In this document: positions 2,402 to 18,783 of the stretch, piece after piece | Layout of the letters: every line of letters starts with the position of its first letter | Position numbering within the stretch: the first letter of the stretch is position 1 | Virus record (IMG/VR): IMGVR_UViG_3300032235_000198 | Location: 1 to 41,735 of that record | Strand: one strand, 5' to 3' | Length of the DNA: 41,735 nt | DNA from: a virus | Translations under genes and position numbers: made by a program | The notes under the pieces: model-generated | What the model was told of the DNA's origin: nothing | Database searches by the model: none | Seen by the model: the letters and a program-made list of their open reading frames with translations, nothing else

Positions 2402-3396
2402 GCGAACAGGTCCTCTTGATGCGCCGCCGTCGTGTTGAGCCGCTTGCGTGCCGATTCCAAGTAAGCCGGGTCTCGCTCAATGCCGATGAACTGGCGACCC
2501 TCAAGCTTGCAAGCTTCACCAGTGGAGCCTGAGCCCATGAAGCAATCGAGCACTACAGCGCCAGGTTTTGTGCTGGCGGTGATGATGTGTCGCAGCATGT
2601 CCACCGGCTTCTCGCACGGGTGCTTGCCGGGGTAAGCCTTCACGGTGGAGAAATCCCACACGTCGGTGTAGGGCACGGCAGCTGACACCGAAAACGGGCG
2701 CCGCAGATAGTCGTACTCGCGCCGCAGATAGTCGCCGCCTGACTTGTTAAGCAGTTCTCGCATCGCCAAATAGTGCGCCTCTGTCGGCAGCTGCCATTGG
2801 CTCTGGCTGAAGTAGTGGCGTGACGCCATGCCACCCGGTGAAGGGCTGAAGCCACACGCAACGTTGGCAGCGATCTTGCCCGCTTGGTTCAGCATCCCAG
2901 CGCGCTCAAACTCTCCAGCGATGTAAGACCGCAGCGGCTCAAACAGAAACCCACGCAACTCATCGCACTTGGCCGCGTAGCCGGCCTCGCCCTTGGCAAT
3001 GTTGTCGGCTCCGTAGTGCTCCGCAAAGATGCACTCCTCCCACGGCGACAGGTAGGACCGCAGAGCCTCCTTCTCCGCCTTTTGGTGCCAGCCTGCGGCC
3101 TTTACCCAGCGGATGCGGTTCAGCACGTTGAACCGCCGGCTGATCTCCACCTCTACCCGTGCCGCCATCTTGGGTGACGCCCACACATAGAGGCTGCCGT
3201 TCGGCTTCAGCACACGGTGCCACTGCTCGCACAGCTGGCCAATCCACGCGATGAACTGATCCGCATCGTCCCACTGCCGGTCCCATGCTTCGCCCTTCAC
3301 GCGGAAGTAGGGAGGGTCTGTGACTATGGCATCCACGCTGCAGTCCGGCAGCTCGCGGAGCCGGTCGAGGCAGTCGCCGTGCAGCAGCTCGATCAT
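2398..3396 (-). CDS. Site-specific DNA methyltransferase (N6-adenine/N4-cytosine, DPPY first)
   Basis: A 332-residue SAM-dependent amino-methyltransferase. The catalytic DPPY motif is at residues 27-30, before the SAM-binding FMGSGSTG at 286-293, an order typical of beta-class enzymes. Between them is a large variable region that would hold target recognition. The C terminus has the usual GIERDPAYLESA segment. It sits inside the packaging operon, with ATGA overlaps to both the small terminase upstream and the large terminase downstream, so it is probably made late. No cognate restriction endonuclease lies next to it, so protection of phage DNA from host restriction is the simplest role; modulation of packaging or of the cos region is another possibility. 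The target sequence cannot be inferred from the protein. Confidence 0.93.
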   Translation of the reverse strand: MIELLHGDCLDRLRELPDCSVDAIVTDPPYFRVKGEAWDRQWDDADQFIAWIGQLCEQWHRVLKPNGSLYVWASPKMAARVEVEISRRFNVLNRIRWVKAAGWHQKAEKEALRSYLSPWEECIFAEHYGADNIAKGEAGYAAKCDELRGFLFEPLRSYIAGEFERAGMLNQAGKIAANVACGFSPSPGGMASRHYFSQSQWQLPTEAHYLAMRELLNKSGGDYLRREYDYLRRPFSVSAAVPYTDVWDFSTVKAYPGKHPCEKPVDMLRHIITASTKPGAVVLDCFMGSGSTGEACKLEGRQFIGIERDPAYLESARKRLNTTAAHQEDLFA

Positions 3397-3926
3397 CGCT
3401 CTGAGTCTGCCAGCGCCAGCAGCGCATCGCGGTGCTCATCGCTCAGCAGCTGGTGGATCACCGCAGGGTCGGTCTCACCCGCCAGCTGGTGCGACAGCCG
3501 GTCAGCCAGATTCGAGAGCGCCTCTCTCACGCTGCGTCCAATCTGGAACGCCTGCTTCTTCACCTCATCCGCTGGCACCAGCTCCTTGCGCTGCTGCGCC
3601 ACCTGCAGCTTCGCCAGCTCCGCCTGGTAGTGCTCCCGCCGTGCCCGGCTCTCATTCAGCTCGGGGATCGCATCATCCGGCAGCCGGTCGATCGCCTTGC
3701 GCAGCTCCACCGGCGTGCGCGGCTCCACCGGGTCCGGCTGGCTCACCTTCGCGTTGTGGGTCGCCTTGGTGTTCTTCCGCCACAGCTCGAGCGCTAGGTC
3801 GCGGTCCAGCCAGCGCTTGCCGTCCTTCTCCACAACAGCCGCACCGATGCGCGATCGAATCGCTGCAGTAACGGCAGCTTTCGAGCATCCCTTCAGCGCG
3901 GCGAACTCGGAAAACGTGACGAGCAC
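3393..3926 (-). CDS. Terminase small subunit, Nu1-like
   Basis: A 177-residue protein with an N-terminal helix-turn-helix (MLVTFSEFAALKGCSKAAVT, then RWLDRDLALELW). After it comes a charged, helical C-terminal half that would bind the large subunit. This is the layout of lambda Nu1 (181 residues), which recognises cosB and hands DNA to gpA. It starts with GTG; the Shine-Dalgarno in front is weak. The gene is immediately downstream of the 313-bp non-coding block with repeated CTCAGCG elements, the expected position for its binding sites, and overlaps the methyltransferase start by four bases. The assignment rests on synteny, length and the HTH. Confidence 0.85.
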   Translation of the reverse strand: MLVTFSEFAALKGCSKAAVTAAIRSRIGAAVVEKDGKRWLDRDLALELWRKNTKATHNAKVSQPDPVEPRTPVELRKAIDRLPDDAIPELNESRARREHYQAELAKLQVAQQRKELVPADEVKKQAFQIGRSVREALSNLADRLSHQLAGETDPAVIHQLLSDEHRDALLALADSER

Positions 3927-5018: not shown

Positions 5019-5243
5019 CTAGCGGGAGGCCTGCCACTCCGCAACGGCCTGATCGAGCGCTGCCATTGCCCCGTCGCAGGCATCGAGGAACATCAGCCGA
5101 TGCCGCAGCGCCATGGCTGACCACTGTGAAGGCCAGCCGCGCTGGTTGGCGGCCACGTCGCGAAGAAAGTCCTGCGCGAGGTCACCGACGGGGTCGTTGC
5201 GATCCCGCTGCGCCTTGAGCCATGAGCCGAAGGATTGAGCCAT
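5019..5243 (-). CDS. YozE SAM-like fold small protein
   Basis: A 74-residue protein whose N-terminal half (SFGSWLKAQRDRNDPVGDLA, then QDFLRD) matches the pattern of the YozE_SAM_like domain, a small helical domain found in Firmicutes and phages. That family has no well-defined biochemical role. The start ATG is preceded by AGGATTGAGCC on the coding strand. It lies between the iteron-rich block next to the primase gene and the gpZ-like gene, so it may be the last early gene or the first late one. Confidence 0.6.
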   Translation of the reverse strand: MAQSFGSWLKAQRDRNDPVGDLAQDFLRDVAANQRGWPSQWSAMALRHRLMFLDACDGAMAALDQAVAEWQASR

Positions 5244-5516
5244 GAGTCGATCCGGTAGTGGCGGACGAAAGCAAATCTAGGGGGTGAAGGCAAGCAGAAG
5301 GCAAAAACCCAGTCGTGGCGGGGGTGAAGGCAAAACCCCCCATTTTTCCTCCATTCCCTACACACGTAGCGTTTCCCCTATCTGTGCCCCCTTACCCCTG
5401 TGATGTGATGTGATCTAGGGGGATTAGGGTTCAGGTAGGTATTGCAAGGGGTTTGGCCTTCGATTTGCCTTCGCCCCTGCCCTCGATCGAAGGCAAGTTG
5501 CCTTCGATTTTTGGGG
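5244..5516. other. Iteron-rich non-coding block: candidate replication origin
   Basis: This gap next to the primase-helicase gene carries GAAGGCAA at 5286-5293, 5297-5304, 5326-5333 and 5489-5496. The complement TTGCCTTC is at 5465-5472 and 5498-5505, with two further copies inside the primase 3' end (5564-5571, 5582-5589). Homopyrimidine/homopurine tracts (5334-5400, 5417-5431) and a triple TGTGA run (about 5400-5413) lie between them. Clustered short iterons beside a replication initiator gene are typical of phage and plasmid origins. No gene is convincing in this gap. Confidence 0.5.
5486..5508. repeat. Perfect 11-bp inverted repeat in the iteron block
   Basis: ATCGAAGGCAA and TTGCCTTCGAT flank a single G. 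The arms contain the iteron core. A T5 run follows on the plus strand, so as RNA it could also form a 9-bp stem with a five-base loop and act as a rightward terminator, although no rightward gene precedes it. Its position just past the primase stop suits either an origin element or a barrier. Confidence 0.6.
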
Positions 5517-7970
5517 TCAGCCGATGGCGGCAGGAAGGCGAACGCCAACCAGCGTGGTGGTTCTTGCCTTCGGATCCTTTTTTGCCTTCACCTCTGGGAA
5601 CACCACCAGCAGGCGCTGAAGCAGCAAACGGGAGGCCTTGACGGTCGGATCGTTGGGTGGATCGATCACCCAGCGGCCGTTGCCATCCTTGAAGCCCTCC
5701 TCCTGATACCAGCGGCACAGGTGCGCCCAGACGGTGAGGAGTGGGGTCTCTGCGTCCTCATCCCATGAGAGGCCGATCTCATCGCAGAAGTCCCAAAGGT
5801 GGCTGCCCTTGCGGCGGACGGCGCGCATGGCTTCACGTCCGGTCTCGTAGTCGATGCCGTGCTCAACGGAGAGCTGCAGGCCTTCCAGCAGCCAGTTGAG
5901 GAAGGCGGGGCAGATGTGGCGATGGATGAACTCAGGGTCATCCTTGAGGCGTGGGTCAGCCTTGAGGTGCTCCGGCCTGGTGGGCACCGCCATGTAGGTG
6001 CGGCGGAACTGAAAGACGTGGAACCGGGTCTCGATGGCAGCCTGCTCGCCGGTGAGCGATGGCTCCTTGTTCAGGTTGAAAACGAACAGGCAGTTCGGGA
6101 TGAAGGTGGTCTCTTGGACGCCTTTCACCTCCCATGCAAGCTCCTCGCCGGAGATGGCGCCCTTCAGAGCTTGCAGGCTGTCGATGTGGACGAACTGGCT
6201 GTTCTCGGAGCTCCAGTTGATGGAGGCATCACGGAGCGGCGCGATGGGGAACTTGCGGCCCTGGTCGTACTGGCGAAAGTCGGCGAGGGTGCAGGAGGAG
6301 AAGTTGCGAGCGCCGAGCGTGTCACGCAGTGCGGTGCGGATGGTGTCCTTGCCGTTGGAACCGGAGCCGATCATGAGCAGGGCTCTGGGGCGGCCGCGTG
6401 TGGCGCGGTATTTCGTCAGATCAAGCGATGAACCGAGGATGCGCTGCAGAGTGTCCTGATCGGTGGGTTCCACGGCCTCAAGCAGGCGGAACATGTGCTC
6501 GGGGTTGGCCTGCGGGTCGTAGTCGTAGTCGGTGATGTAGGTGAAGGGCACCGCGGGATTGTGCGGCGTGAAATGAAGGGTGAAGCGGCTGCCTTGCCAC
6601 GTCCAGCTGACGACCCCATTGCGGCAGTTGATGGCGTTTGGTGGGTTGACGCCTGATGCGCCGAGCTTGGTGCGCATCCATGCCAGGGCTTCGGTCACGT
6701 AGCGAGGTCGCGCCCATGGGTGGATGCACTCGCCTTCCTTGCCTTCGGTGGTGTAGAGCTGCTCGAGGAAGGCAGCGATCAGGGGTGACAGCTCATCGTC
6801 TGTGATGGATTGGTAGTGGCAGCCACTCCAGAAGTGGAGGATCTCGTCATGGCAGATCCAGCGACTGTTGATCTTGTCGAAGACGCCTTGCTTGACCAGC
6901 GGCAGCCAGTCGGAGTTCTTGCTGCGCAGGTTGAAGTTGATCGCCTCTGTGACTTCAGCGAGCGGCGCATCGGGTGATGGCGCTGGTGAAATCTGCTGCT
7001 GGCGGTGCTGGCGTGCCTGGCGGTTGAGGTGATAGCGCAGGCGATCCGGCCAGCCCTTGTCGACGGTGCGGGGTTGTTCTGCGGCACTGCGCAGGCAGGT
7101 GAGCGCTTCGCGTTCGGGCAGCGGTGGTGAGCAGCGTGCGGCGAAGGAGAGCACCACCTGCTCGGGTGTGCCGCTGACGAGAAGGCCTGCAGCGCGTGCG
7201 GCGTCATCAATGGCGAATGCGACAGCTGCGAGGCGGAAGCAGTCGTTGTTGCGGCCGCCTTCGGTGGTGCCTGATGTTGCGAGCTGGCTGAGCTCCTTGG
7301 GCAGCAGCTCATCGAGGTTGATGGTGTCCGGCAGTTGTACGGACGACACCGTGATGGCCGTTGCGGGCTGCTCGGGTTCAGGAAGGCAGGCCTCGATGTC
7401 TTCGACGTTGTAGGTGCGCTCGGAGCAGGTGACGATCGATGCGAGCTCACCGAGCGTGCCATCGGCCTTGACGTGGAAGGTGCCTGGAAGGCGCATGACG
7501 CGCGAGGGGTTCTTGAGCGCGCGATCGGCATCAGCGTGATCGAGCAGGCGCTTTTGAAGGATGCGCCAGTGCTGCGGGCTAATGGGATCGTTCAGCACCC
7601 AGTAGCAGTGGATCGACTTCCCGCCGGTGTCCACCTGGATGGTGGGTTCTGGCAGGCCGAGCTCCTGCCATGCGTTGAGCTGCCAGTCCTTGGGGCGATC
7701 GTCCCACTCGCAGAAGAAGGCACGGCAGCCGGTGATGTCGGCGTCGGTGTCACCGCCATCGTTGATGACGACGTAGACGCCGCGGCCTTCTGCTTGCCAC
7801 TCCTCGACGGCCTTGCGGGATGGTGGCGCCTTGCGGCCGCGATCGTCACCCTTGGCGGGGTGACCATTGGGGAAAAAACCACGAAGACGCGCGGTGCCGG
7901 TTGGTTTGCCGATCACCTTGAAGAAGGTGCGGATCGCGCTGAAATCAGGCGTCTTCTGTAACGTTGTCAT
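5517..7970 (-). CDS. Bifunctional primase-helicase (D5-like, SF3 helicase)
   Basis: An 817-residue replication protein from the ATG that begins MTTLQKTPDFSAI; longer readings overlap the nuclease gene and have no family-like sequence. The N-terminal third looks like a primase-polymerase/RepB-type primase: FFCEWDD near residue 87, VDTGGKSIHCYW and RVMRLPGTFHVK. The C-terminal half is a D5/poxvirus-type SF3 helicase with Walker A MIGSGSNGKDT near residue 535, Walker B-like SINWSSEN and FNLNKEPSL in the sensor region. It would open and prime the phage origin. The iteron block follows directly, and two iterons lie in its 3' coding end. It belongs to the leftward early operon after the helicase and VRR-NUC genes. 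Confidence 0.88.
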   Translation of the reverse strand: MTTLQKTPDFSAIRTFFKVIGKPTGTARLRGFFPNGHPAKGDDRGRKAPPSRKAVEEWQAEGRGVYVVINDGGDTDADITGCRAFFCEWDDRPKDWQLNAWQELGLPEPTIQVDTGGKSIHCYWVLNDPISPQHWRILQKRLLDHADADRALKNPSRVMRLPGTFHVKADGTLGELASIVTCSERTYNVEDIEACLPEPEQPATAITVSSVQLPDTINLDELLPKELSQLATSGTTEGGRNNDCFRLAAVAFAIDDAARAAGLLVSGTPEQVVLSFAARCSPPLPEREALTCLRSAAEQPRTVDKGWPDRLRYHLNRQARQHRQQQISPAPSPDAPLAEVTEAINFNLRSKNSDWLPLVKQGVFDKINSRWICHDEILHFWSGCHYQSITDDELSPLIAAFLEQLYTTEGKEGECIHPWARPRYVTEALAWMRTKLGASGVNPPNAINCRNGVVSWTWQGSRFTLHFTPHNPAVPFTYITDYDYDPQANPEHMFRLLEAVEPTDQDTLQRILGSSLDLTKYRATRGRPRALLMIGSGSNGKDTIRTALRDTLGARNFSSCTLADFRQYDQGRKFPIAPLRDASINWSSENSQFVHIDSLQALKGAISGEELAWEVKGVQETTFIPNCLFVFNLNKEPSLTGEQAAIETRFHVFQFRRTYMAVPTRPEHLKADPRLKDDPEFIHRHICPAFLNWLLEGLQLSVEHGIDYETGREAMRAVRRKGSHLWDFCDEIGLSWDEDAETPLLTVWAHLCRWYQEEGFKDGNGRWVIDPPNDPTVKASRLLLQRLLVVFPEVKAKKDPKARTTTLVGVRLPAAIG

Positions 7971-8043
7971 GTCTGCAGGTAGTGGCTGTGGACTGTGGCC
8001 GGGGTGTATGGAGCACCACCGGCCGCTTTTTTTGGCAGGTGCA

Positions 8044-8427
8044 TTATGGGCTGCCCTGCACGATGACGACGGCATCTGCAACAGACCGCGCCACTCCTGC
8101 GATGCCACCGGCTGATCGGACGGCATGGAGCCAGTGGGTCTGGGCAGGTGAGAGGCGGCCTGATGGGGTCTTGATCTCGAGCGACGTGAACACGGCGATG
8201 CGCTGCCCGACCATCTCAGGGGTGACGGTGAGGGTGCGCCAGCCGATCAGGTCAGCGGAGCCGCGGGCAAGGCCGAAGGTGACGAGCCGGCCGGTGCGTG
8301 GATCGGGGAGCGATCCGACTTGGTTGCGGAACAGTCGGGCATCGGGGTGCGTGCCGAGCGCGAGACGGATGCGCTGCTGCAGGTCGGTCTCGGGGTTCGC
8401 CACATCAGGCCGATCGGTTGCGCGCAT
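8044..8427 (-). CDS. VRR-NUC domain nuclease
   Basis: A 127-residue stand-alone VRR-NUC (PD-(D/E)XK superfamily) nuclease. Visible core elements are the N-terminal E in NPETDLQQRI, then GSADLIGWRTL (the G-x-x-D position) and FTSLEIKTPSGRLSPAQ, which supplies the E-x-K active-site pair followed by the conserved Q. VRR-NUC proteins act on branched or flapped DNA, and phage versions often accompany an SF2 helicase. Here the gene start lies 23 bases inside the helicase 3' end. A role in processing replication or recombination intermediates is inferred. Confidence 0.88.
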   Translation of the reverse strand: MRATDRPDVANPETDLQQRIRLALGTHPDARLFRNQVGSLPDPRTGRLVTFGLARGSADLIGWRTLTVTPEMVGQRIAVFTSLEIKTPSGRLSPAQTHWLHAVRSAGGIAGVARSVADAVVIVQGSP

Positions 8428-17063: not shown

Positions 17064-17459
17064 ATGGGGCGCAACTCCGCCGAATACAGCCGCGCTTACT
17101 ACGAGCGAAACAAGGAACGCATCAAAGCGAAGGCAGCAGAAGGCAATCGGAACCAGCGACGTCGCCACCGGATCCGCATCGTGGAGTACCTACTAGAGCA
17201 CCCATGTGTGGACTGCGGCGAAGCTGACCCACTGGTGCTGGAGTTTGACCATCGCGACCCGAACCAAAAGGCGTTCTCTGTTTCGGAGGGTGCCAACAAG
17301 ACATGGCGCTGGCAGCGCATCGAAGCCGAGATCGCCAAGTGCGATGTGCGATGCGCGAATTGCCACAGGCGTCGAACCAAGGCGCAGCATCTTGAGTGGT
17401 ACGAAGGCGCGCGAATAGTGCGCGAACGGCTTGACGCCATGAATCGAAGCGCCCGCTAA
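17064..17459 (+). CDS. HNH endonuclease with basic N terminus
   Basis: A 131-residue HNH-type protein. The N terminus is strongly basic and helical (EYSRAYYERNKERIKAKAAE). The nuclease core reads CVDCGEADPLVLEFDHRDPN, with DH as the metal-binding pair, and then DVRCANCHRRRTKAQ. Cys pairs on each side bind structural zinc. This type is widespread in phages and often free-standing. It sits just before the attP region, and its stop codon is part of the stem of the following terminator. Confidence 0.85.
   Translation: MGRNSAEYSRAYYERNKERIKAKAAEGNRNQRRRHRIRIVEYLLEHPCVDCGEADPLVLEFDHRDPNQKAFSVSEGANKTWRWQRIEAEIAKCDVRCANCHRRRTKAQHLEWYEGARIVRERLDAMNRSAR
17409..17426 (+). repeat. GCGCGAA motif pair, left cluster
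   Basis: GCGCGAA at 17409-17415 and 17420-17426, 11 bp apart, inside the HNH 3' end. The same motif recurs in the integrase leader. Possible integrase arm-type or Xis sites. Confidence 0.4.
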
Positions 17460-17483
17460 GTCATTGACCTAGCGGGCGCTTTT
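17448..17483 (+). terminator. Intrinsic terminator overlapping the HNH stop codon
   Basis: AGCGCCCGCTA (17448-17458) pairs perfectly with TAGCGGGCGCT (17470-17480) over an 11-base loop, followed by TTT. The T-tract is short. The last base touches the attP core. Confidence 0.8.
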
Positions 17484-17528
17484 GGTTGCGGGGGCCAGAT
17501 TTGAACTGACGACCTTCAGGTTATGAGC
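17483..17528 (-). other. attP core: 3' half of a tRNA-Met(CAU), initiator-like
   Basis: Read on the minus strand, the sequence runs from the anticodon loop CTCATAA through the variable loop AGGTC. It continues with a perfect T arm (GTCAG TTCAAAT CTGGC), the acceptor strand CCCCGCA, discriminator A and CCA. The A at position 72 and the acceptor sequence resemble initiator tRNA-fMet. Upstream of the anticodon loop the sequence no longer fits a tRNA, so this is only the 3' half. A tRNA 3' half next to an integrase gene is the standard form of an attP core. Integration would restore the host tRNA. Confidence 0.85.
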
Positions 17529-17614
17529 TTCAGCCCAAAGGTTCACTGCAGCTCACGCAATCTCACGAAGTACCTGATTCGTCGCTGCTTTTGCTGTTGA
17601 CCTTCTCCCAGTCG

Positions 17615-17666
17615 TTCGCGCAAGATCCCGGCCGTTCGCGCAAATCTGCGCGAATGGTGCGCGAAT
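17615..17666. promoter_or_regulatory. GCGCGAA/TTCGCGC motif cluster in the integrase leader
   Basis: TTCGCGCAA occurs at 17615-17623 and 17635-17643 (20 bp apart). TGCGCGAA is at 17647-17654 and TGCGCGAAT at 17658-17666 (11 bp apart). The middle two form an 8-bp dyad with a 3-bp centre. The last copy runs into the integrase ATG. Helical-turn spacing suggests a protein-binding array: integrase arm sites, an autoregulatory operator, or both. Confidence 0.5.
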
Positions 17667-18783
17667 GGAGAGCGTGGTGAGCAAGCAGTGGATCTCTGAT
17701 CGCAAGATCCCCGGTCTCGGGCTAATGGTGCTGCCGTCAGGCGTGCGCACCTACTACCTGCGTTACAGGGAGCCAGGCGGCAAGCAGCAGACGCACAAGA
17801 TCGGCCGCGCCGAGATCGTGAACGTTACCGCCGCGCGCGAGCAAGCGCACAAGATCCTCGCCGCTGTCGCACAGGGGCAGGCACCCACCAGCGCACGCCA
17901 GCAACAACGCCGAGCACCGACAGTGGCGCAGCTGCTTGAACGCATCAAGGTCGAGCACTGGCGCAAGCTGCGACCTGGCTCCGTGGTCAACAACGAACTG
18001 ATCTGGCGCCGCCACCTGCTGCCGGTGTTCGGTGCCATGCGCGTGCATGAAGTGCAGCAGCGCCATGTGGCTGCTTGGTTCCATGAGGCCAGCCTGAAGG
18101 CGCCCGTAAACGCCAACCGCTGCCTTGAGGTGCTGAGCAAGGCCATGAACTTGGCGGAGCTGTGGGACCTGCGCCCGCAAGGGTCGAATCCGTGCGCGCG
18201 TCTCTCCGGCAACAGTGAACGCAAGCGGCGCCGCTACCTGACGCGCGAGGAGCTTCAGCGGCTGCTGGCGGCCTTGGATCGCTTCGGCATCACCCGCGTT
18301 CGCTGGCGCTTCGCGCAGCTGATCCGCCTGCTGCTGCTGACCGGCTGCCGCGTCTCAGAGATCAAGGATGCGCGCTGGGAATGGGTGCAGGGCGCTGTGC
18401 TGGTGGTGCCAGCTGACTGCCACAAGACCGGACAGGACGGCAGCGATCGCCGCGTGCAGCTGCCACCGCAGGCGCTGCTGGTGCTTGAGGAGCTGCGCGC
18501 CAAATCGAACAGCGAGTGGATCATCCAGGGCGATGGCGATGGCCACCTGATTGGCTACCACCGCATGTGGGCGCAGCTGCTGAAAGACGCCAAGATCGAG
18601 AACCTGCGAGTTCACGACACGCGGCACAGTTTTGCCAGCCTTGGCCTGAGCGCCGGGCTGAGCCTGCCGCAGATCGGTGGACTGCTCGGCCACGCCAGCC
18701 CGCAGACCACGCAGCGCTACGCCCACCTGATGGATGAGGCAGCAGCCGGCATGGCCGCGAAGGTGGCCGCGCTGATCCGCTAG
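17665..18783 (+). CDS. int: Tyrosine integrase, P4-like
   Basis: A 372-residue tyrosine recombinase. The N-terminal arm-binding part is DUF4102-like (KIPGLGLMVLPSGVRTYYLR), followed by a SAM-like core-binding domain (VAQLLERIKVEHWRKLRPGS). Catalytic residues are R229 in TGCRVSEI, a Lys candidate in CHKTGQDGSDRR, H317 and R320 in VHDTRHSF, H343 in LLGHASPQTT and Y352 in QRYAHL. It would recombine the tRNA-derived attP at 17483-17528 with the host tRNA gene. The first ATG has no Shine-Dalgarno; the GTG at 17677, with GGAG upstream, is a possible start. The gene ends on the same CTAG as the convergent dCTP deaminase. Confidence 0.95.
   Translation: MESVVSKQWISDRKIPGLGLMVLPSGVRTYYLRYREPGGKQQTHKIGRAEIVNVTAAREQAHKILAAVAQGQAPTSARQQQRRAPTVAQLLERIKVEHWRKLRPGSVVNNELIWRRHLLPVFGAMRVHEVQQRHVAAWFHEASLKAPVNANRCLEVLSKAMNLAELWDLRPQGSNPCARLSGNSERKRRRYLTREELQRLLAALDRFGITRVRWRFAQLIRLLLLTGCRVSEIKDARWEWVQGAVLVVPADCHKTGQDGSDRRVQLPPQALLVLEELRAKSNSEWIIQGDGDGHLIGYHRMWAQLLKDAKIENLRVHDTRHSFASLGLSAGLSLPQIGGLLGHASPQTTQRYAHLMDEAAAGMAAKVAALIR

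Follow-up and report, generated by a model that had tools for sequence, protein, structure and literature searches.

Opposed sets of iterons at the 3' end of a PrimPol-helicase gene: a putative replication origin in a cyanophage-like virus

What is the role of a tight cluster of 8-bp repeats that begins inside the end of a primase-helicase gene and continues beyond it? The cluster lies in a 41.7-kb viral record (IMG/VR IMGVR_UViG_3300032235_000198, positions 1 to 41,735), the whole of which I will call the window. The window encodes a GpA-type terminase, a small terminase subunit, a protease/capsid gene and tail genes, and also exonuclease VIII- and RecT-like genes, an SF2 helicase and an integrase. 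A first-pass annotation had proposed the cluster as a candidate origin of replication. That reading is the best supported of those considered here, in view of the conserved place and layout of the repeats, the concerted change of their sequence between relatives, the adjacent initiator gene and the resemblance to the layout of SaPI/PICI origins. I put at about 0.83 the probability that 5286-5589 is the phage's replication origin, read by the winged helix of the PrimPol-helicase, whose helicase rings would melt the core and whose AEP domain would prime. The features to which I will refer are these:

5286-5333, plus strand: distal iteron set, facing the core, with exact copies at 5286-5293, 5297-5304 and 5326-5333; a distal set aligns with it in relatives
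5334-5464, no strand: 131-bp core that separates the two opposed sets of iterons, with a purine/pyrimidine skew; a candidate melting region
5465-5472, minus strand: innermost iteron of the primase-side set, with a degenerate copy at 5454-5461
5486-5508, no strand: perfect inverted repeat of 23 bp (11+1+11), with arms 5486-5496 and 5498-5508, ATCGAAGGCAA-G-TTGCCTTCGAT
5489-5496, plus strand, and 5498-5505, minus strand: the opposed iterons that form the inverted repeat
5564-5571 and 5582-5589, minus strand: two in-gene iterons, exact matches near the 3' end of the PrimPol-helicase coding sequence
5517..8126, minus strand: PrimPol-helicase gene (869 aa), with an AEP primase-polymerase, a D5_N/DUF5906 SF3-type helicase and a predicted C-terminal winged helix
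5520..5801, minus strand: codons of the winged helix, the predicted iteron reader (about residues 776-869, AlphaFold model)
3393-3926: small terminase subunit (TerS), 1.4 kb from the array
17665-18783: integrase

An exact-match search for GAAGGCAA/TTGCCTTC finds eight copies within 5286-5589, at every place where they had been annotated, and copies with one mismatch occur at 5267, 5454 and 5534. The whole window contains 10 exact copies, as compared to 1.21 expected, a number reached by no shuffle, and the two outside the array are at 6739 and 17139. The density of the word is 14.5/kb inside the array and 0.17/kb outside, which disposes of the alternative that it is equally dense throughout the genome. 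In 60 Markov-1 simulated genomes that kept the window's dinucleotide make-up, the largest 8-mer cluster per 304 bp had 5 members, as compared to the 8 observed.

The layout is likewise as first described. The 11-bp inverted repeat is present and perfect, and the iterons at 5564 and 5582 fall within the last 25 codons of the open reading frame at 5517-8126 (minus strand). Both in the window and in its relatives, the array covers the 3' end of the primase gene and about 230 bp past its stop codon. Read in the direction of the gene, the copies at 5582 and 5564, the palindrome (5498/5489) and the copy at 5465 mostly point towards the 131-bp core, and those at 5326, 5297 and 5286 point back at it. 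The core has an AT content of 48-50% (50% in the best 100 bp) against a window mean of 36%, a mild enrichment that nonetheless places it in the top 1-1.5% of the window. Two runs that had been reported among the iterons are also found, one of pyrimidines (about 5335-5360) and one of the TGTGA type (TGTGATGTGATGTGAT, about 5399-5414).

The search of related phages that had been suggested as a check proved informative. Relatives were collected from 45 viral loci, and the 33 that are full-length with downstream sequence were counted. In 28 of the 33, one 8-bp word occurs at least five times around the primase stop codon, the same place as in the window, and is nearly absent elsewhere in the locus. 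A second query found the array in 47 of 47 loci, from contigs that partly overlap the first set. The word itself depends on the lineage: the alignment puts GAAGGCAA, GGAGGCAA, GGACGCAA or GGA(G/C)CCAA at homologous iteron positions, and most relatives retain the inverted repeat, spelled in the lineage's own word. A switch of word usually affects all copies of a locus, those within the gene included, between primases that are about 54-82% identical. Concerted change of dispersed sites is the pattern that a cognate DNA-binding protein would impose, and since relatives keep the place of the cluster but spell the word differently, their sequences suggest that each enzyme reads its own iteron word. 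Some loci with an intact protein (L014/L039 and L019-L021) have only a few copies or degenerate ones, and no array was found 3' of the primase in Vibrio phage 1.194.O or Enterobacter phage Mulvp2. The 3' ends of the primase genes of L014 and L039 carry mixed or decayed iterons (GAAGCCAA, GGAGGCAA and GAAGGCAA) at matching positions.

The PrimPol-helicase has Pfam matches to D5_N and DUF5906 and a PHROG match to DNA primases. Foldseek pairs its AEP domain with the PrimPol of cyanophage S-2L (6zp9; 37% identity over about 190 aa, E 4.9e-15, TMt 0.88), and other matches of the protein are RepB' (3h20) and, more weakly, D5 (8hwc). The DxD and SxH-type motifs of the AEP class are present, and CEWDD, GGKSxHxYW and RVMRLPGT are conserved in the alignment (A1). 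The first structural model of the full-length protein was poor in the helicase core (mean pLDDT 62), but the last 107 aa are modelled by AlphaFold as a winged helix (pLDDT 85.7, pTM 0.78). VIA-align matches this model best to the RFX DBD (1dp7, Z 8.6; 8zjr, Z 8.9) and to the C-terminus of AsfvPrimPol, another PrimPol-helicase (Z of about 6), while Foldseek alone gave no strong match to the winged helix (best E 0.04). The predicted fold is one shared with DNA-binding domains, a likeness that does not itself show function. Elsewhere in the gene (6897-7376, primase residues 250-410 in A1), two unrelated-looking versions of a linker alternate among close relatives. Over residues 261-410, L034 and L037 are 14-27% identical to the window, as compared to 44-98% elsewhere, a sign of recombination inside the primase gene.

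Which part of the protein reads the word? The first-pass annotation had pointed to the N terminus, but the C-terminal winged helix is the likelier reader: relatives that share 60-62% of the PrimPol N terminus but have a different C-terminal part lack these iterons. Those of VirE and DUF3987 type share 50-62% of the AEP domain, and because the GAAGGCAA-type word is absent from them, the AEP domain alone is not the reader. A natural recombinant, as judged from its sequence, bears on the same question. The body of the L034 protein is like that of L037, which has GGAGGCAA, and its winged helix and iterons are like those of the window (starred branch, 97/93). Parsimony requires 5 changes of word on the tree of the protein body and 5 on that of the winged helix (1 and 1 for G4/C4), and with the counts equal, L034 is the one case that speaks for the winged helix in particular. 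The L201 group looked at first like another swap, but it branches as the sister of the GGACGCAA clade and is not counted as one. Since the array and the winged-helix codons adjoin, their co-inheritance in L034 may reflect physical linkage. That possibility and the equal counts on both trees leave the assignment to the winged helix, which draws on sequences and a modelled fold, likely but not proven.

Where relatives have just the PrimPol domain in common with the window, the 3' side of the gene bears different candidate repeat words. L051 and L052, of the DUF3987 type, have a significant array of a different word, AGCCCACA, around an AT-rich stretch:

L051:7541-8000 and L052:5921-6400: AGCCCACA/TGTGGGCT array flanking the AT-rich stretch, directly 3' of the PrimPol-DUF3987-like helicase fusion gene

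VirE-type loci have weaker lineage words, e.g., TAGGACA and GGTTGGACA, only some of which exceed shuffles. Among them, L155-L162 have, past the 3' end of the PrimPol-VirE-type gene, an AT-rich core in which a TATAGGG(C/G)...AAAA...GGGGCTAT element recurs, and around this core lie repeats that differ by lineage (TGTCCGA, GGTTGGACA, GGTAGGG).

It is possible, though I lean somewhat against it, that PrimPol phages have a swappable cassette for origin specificity, in which the C-terminal helicase/winged-helix half and the adjacent iteron array change together. Such a cassette would have at least four words, perhaps eight or more when other helicase types are included, and might extend to the Z-DNA phage S-2L. 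If so, the turnover of words would keep replicons apart in a co-infected cell, and a protein-DNA recognition code could be read from this natural range of words, e.g., at residue 838. The change there from Arg/Lys to Ala, paired with one from G to C at position 4 of the iteron, represents a single evolutionary split so far.

The proposed course of initiation is as follows. The PrimPol-helicase encoded next to the array would bind the GAAGGCAA iterons, in their two opposed sets, by its C-terminal winged helix, and rings of its D5/SF3 helicase would assemble on both sets. The rings would then melt the AT-richer core between the sets, and the N-terminal AEP domain would prime, and may extend, on the opened strands. 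Replication would be of the theta type and probably bidirectional.

Iteron origins immediately 3' of SF3 initiator helicases are already known, and these are the nearest kind to the array described here. In PICIs the origin directly follows the 3' end of the initiator gene and has two sets of iterons on either side of an AT-rich region (PMC6092414), and another account, citing Ubeda 2007, has the C-terminal domain of SaPI Rep recognizing the downstream iterons, apparently as two hexamers (PMC7581432). The window resembles these systems in the position of the putative origin immediately 3' of the gene for a D5-like initiator helicase, in the two sets of short iterons around an AT-richer stretch (5334-5464) and in an SF3/D5-type helicase with a C-terminal recognition domain, here predicted from a model. 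It differs in that the initiator is fused to an AEP PrimPol, the iterons enter the coding sequence, the sets are opposed and include a perfect iteron palindrome, and the core is mildly AT-rich. Moreover, PICIs are satellites without full virion genes, while the window, an integrase-bearing tailed phage, encodes terminase, capsid/protease and tail proteins. By analogy, the array would work like a PICI-type origin, but since it sits in a phage and beside a PrimPol fusion, I do not file it as a PICI.

The alpha protein of P4 is also a multifunctional primase-helicase, whose winged helix binds origin repeats (PMC4234260), and the window's protein has the same predicted combination. The P4 alpha/crr system does not fit, however, for its primase is of the Toprim type and the window's is AEP, with just one array, at the gene's 3' end. 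The AEP-SF3-winged-helix plan is that of ORF904 of pRN1 and the replication proteins of Bordetella phage BPP-1/BIP-1, for which an origin was proposed 3' of the gene as a stem-loop without iterons (PMC4234260). The putative origin of the window is similarly placed, but what this group conserves is an array of iterons rather than the stem-loop suggested for such proteins. No earlier description of this array was found in the literature searched. What is new is that the initiator is fused to an AEP PrimPol, that the array occurs in a tailed phage with an integrase, and that turnover of the iteron word is documented. For a large group of uncultivated, cyanophage-like viruses with a PrimPol-helicase, the array gives a concrete candidate origin that can be tested, and the series of word changes between close relatives offers a way to study initiator specificity.

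Other functions for the repeats have to be weighed. That the opposed arms form one large hairpin, recognized as structure and not as iterons, is suggested by the shared protein plan and by single-strand folding more stable than that of shuffles in most members. That stability is inconsistent among relatives, however: L034 has no excess (z +0.3 against shuffles, +0.5 with iterons kept), L028 and L033 have little once iterons are kept (z -1.5 and -1.8), and the number of copies, their spacing and their presence in the gene fit iterons better. I therefore regard a stem-loop origin of the pRN1 type, independent of iterons, as unlikely. The array might instead be a packaging site (cosB/pac) bound by the small terminase subunit, like the R sites of lambda cosB. 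The TerS and TerL genes lie just downstream, and the GC-skew minimum of the window (4137) falls between the array and TerS. A skew signal at the array had been proposed as a check on the origin, and a minimum is indeed near, within 2 kb in 6 of 8 records, but minima lie also next to terminase genes. The window's minimum lies between array and terminase genes, so that skew, although it supports a switch near the array, does not tell an origin from a packaging end close by. What makes packaging improbable is that the word does not follow the terminase, as it would in a lambda-type cosB. L029 and the window share TerS (74%) and TerL (81%) yet differ in iteron word, the primases of L029 and L030 are nearly identical (782/788) and their word is the same, yet their terminases are unrelated, and copies reach into the primase gene.

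An array of operator or partition sites, where a repressor or partition protein would control downstream genes or segregation, has in its favor that the distal set lies upstream of the open reading frame at 5019-5243 and that iterons of known replicons often also autoregulate. The downstream gene varies among relatives, though (TerS, a DNA polymerase processivity factor, others), and the array stays with the primase. No sigma-70-type promoter was seen, nor was any ParA/ParB-like gene found among the proteins scanned (a partial annotation), and I give this function little credence. Phage attachment sites, too, have a core surrounded by arm repeats, both direct and inverted, but an attP with integrase arm sites at the array is scarcely conceivable and I reject it: the probable attP is 12 kb away, beside the integrase, where a tRNA-like core and separate TGCGCGAA repeats are found (17.3-17.7 kb). 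A known conserved RNA is likewise rejected, with 0 Rfam hits.

If the iterons are indeed an origin, whose is it? The cyanobacterial HIP1 octamer, GCGATCGC, occurs 9 times in the window, as compared to 3.3 expected, and this count, the match to S-2L and matches to Prochlorococcus are hints of a cyanobacterial host. The host is only suggested, since a profile search of genome contigs matched the PrimPol N terminus in no more than two contigs, both of Prochlorococcus; the first scan of genome contigs gave no matches. S-2L (PMC8065100) has the closest solved AEP domain (6zp9) and a similar neighborhood, with SSAP, exonuclease VIII-like and SF2 helicase genes, but unlike the window it has a VirE-type helicase part and Z-DNA genes.

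Two further stretches deserve mention. Within 17280-17670, directly before the integrase gene, six copies of TGCGCGAA (9 in the window, 3.6 expected) surround a segment on the minus strand that resembles the 3' half of a tRNA, probably an attP with arm sites. In S-2L, the 360-bp gap 3' of the PrimPol gene (L069:6190-6550; MW334946 23038-23398) holds seven copies of GGCACR against 0.4 expected, around a polypurine run. This cluster, of a word picked post hoc, is weaker than the window's array, but it makes the gap a candidate for the origin of the Z-DNA cyanophage.
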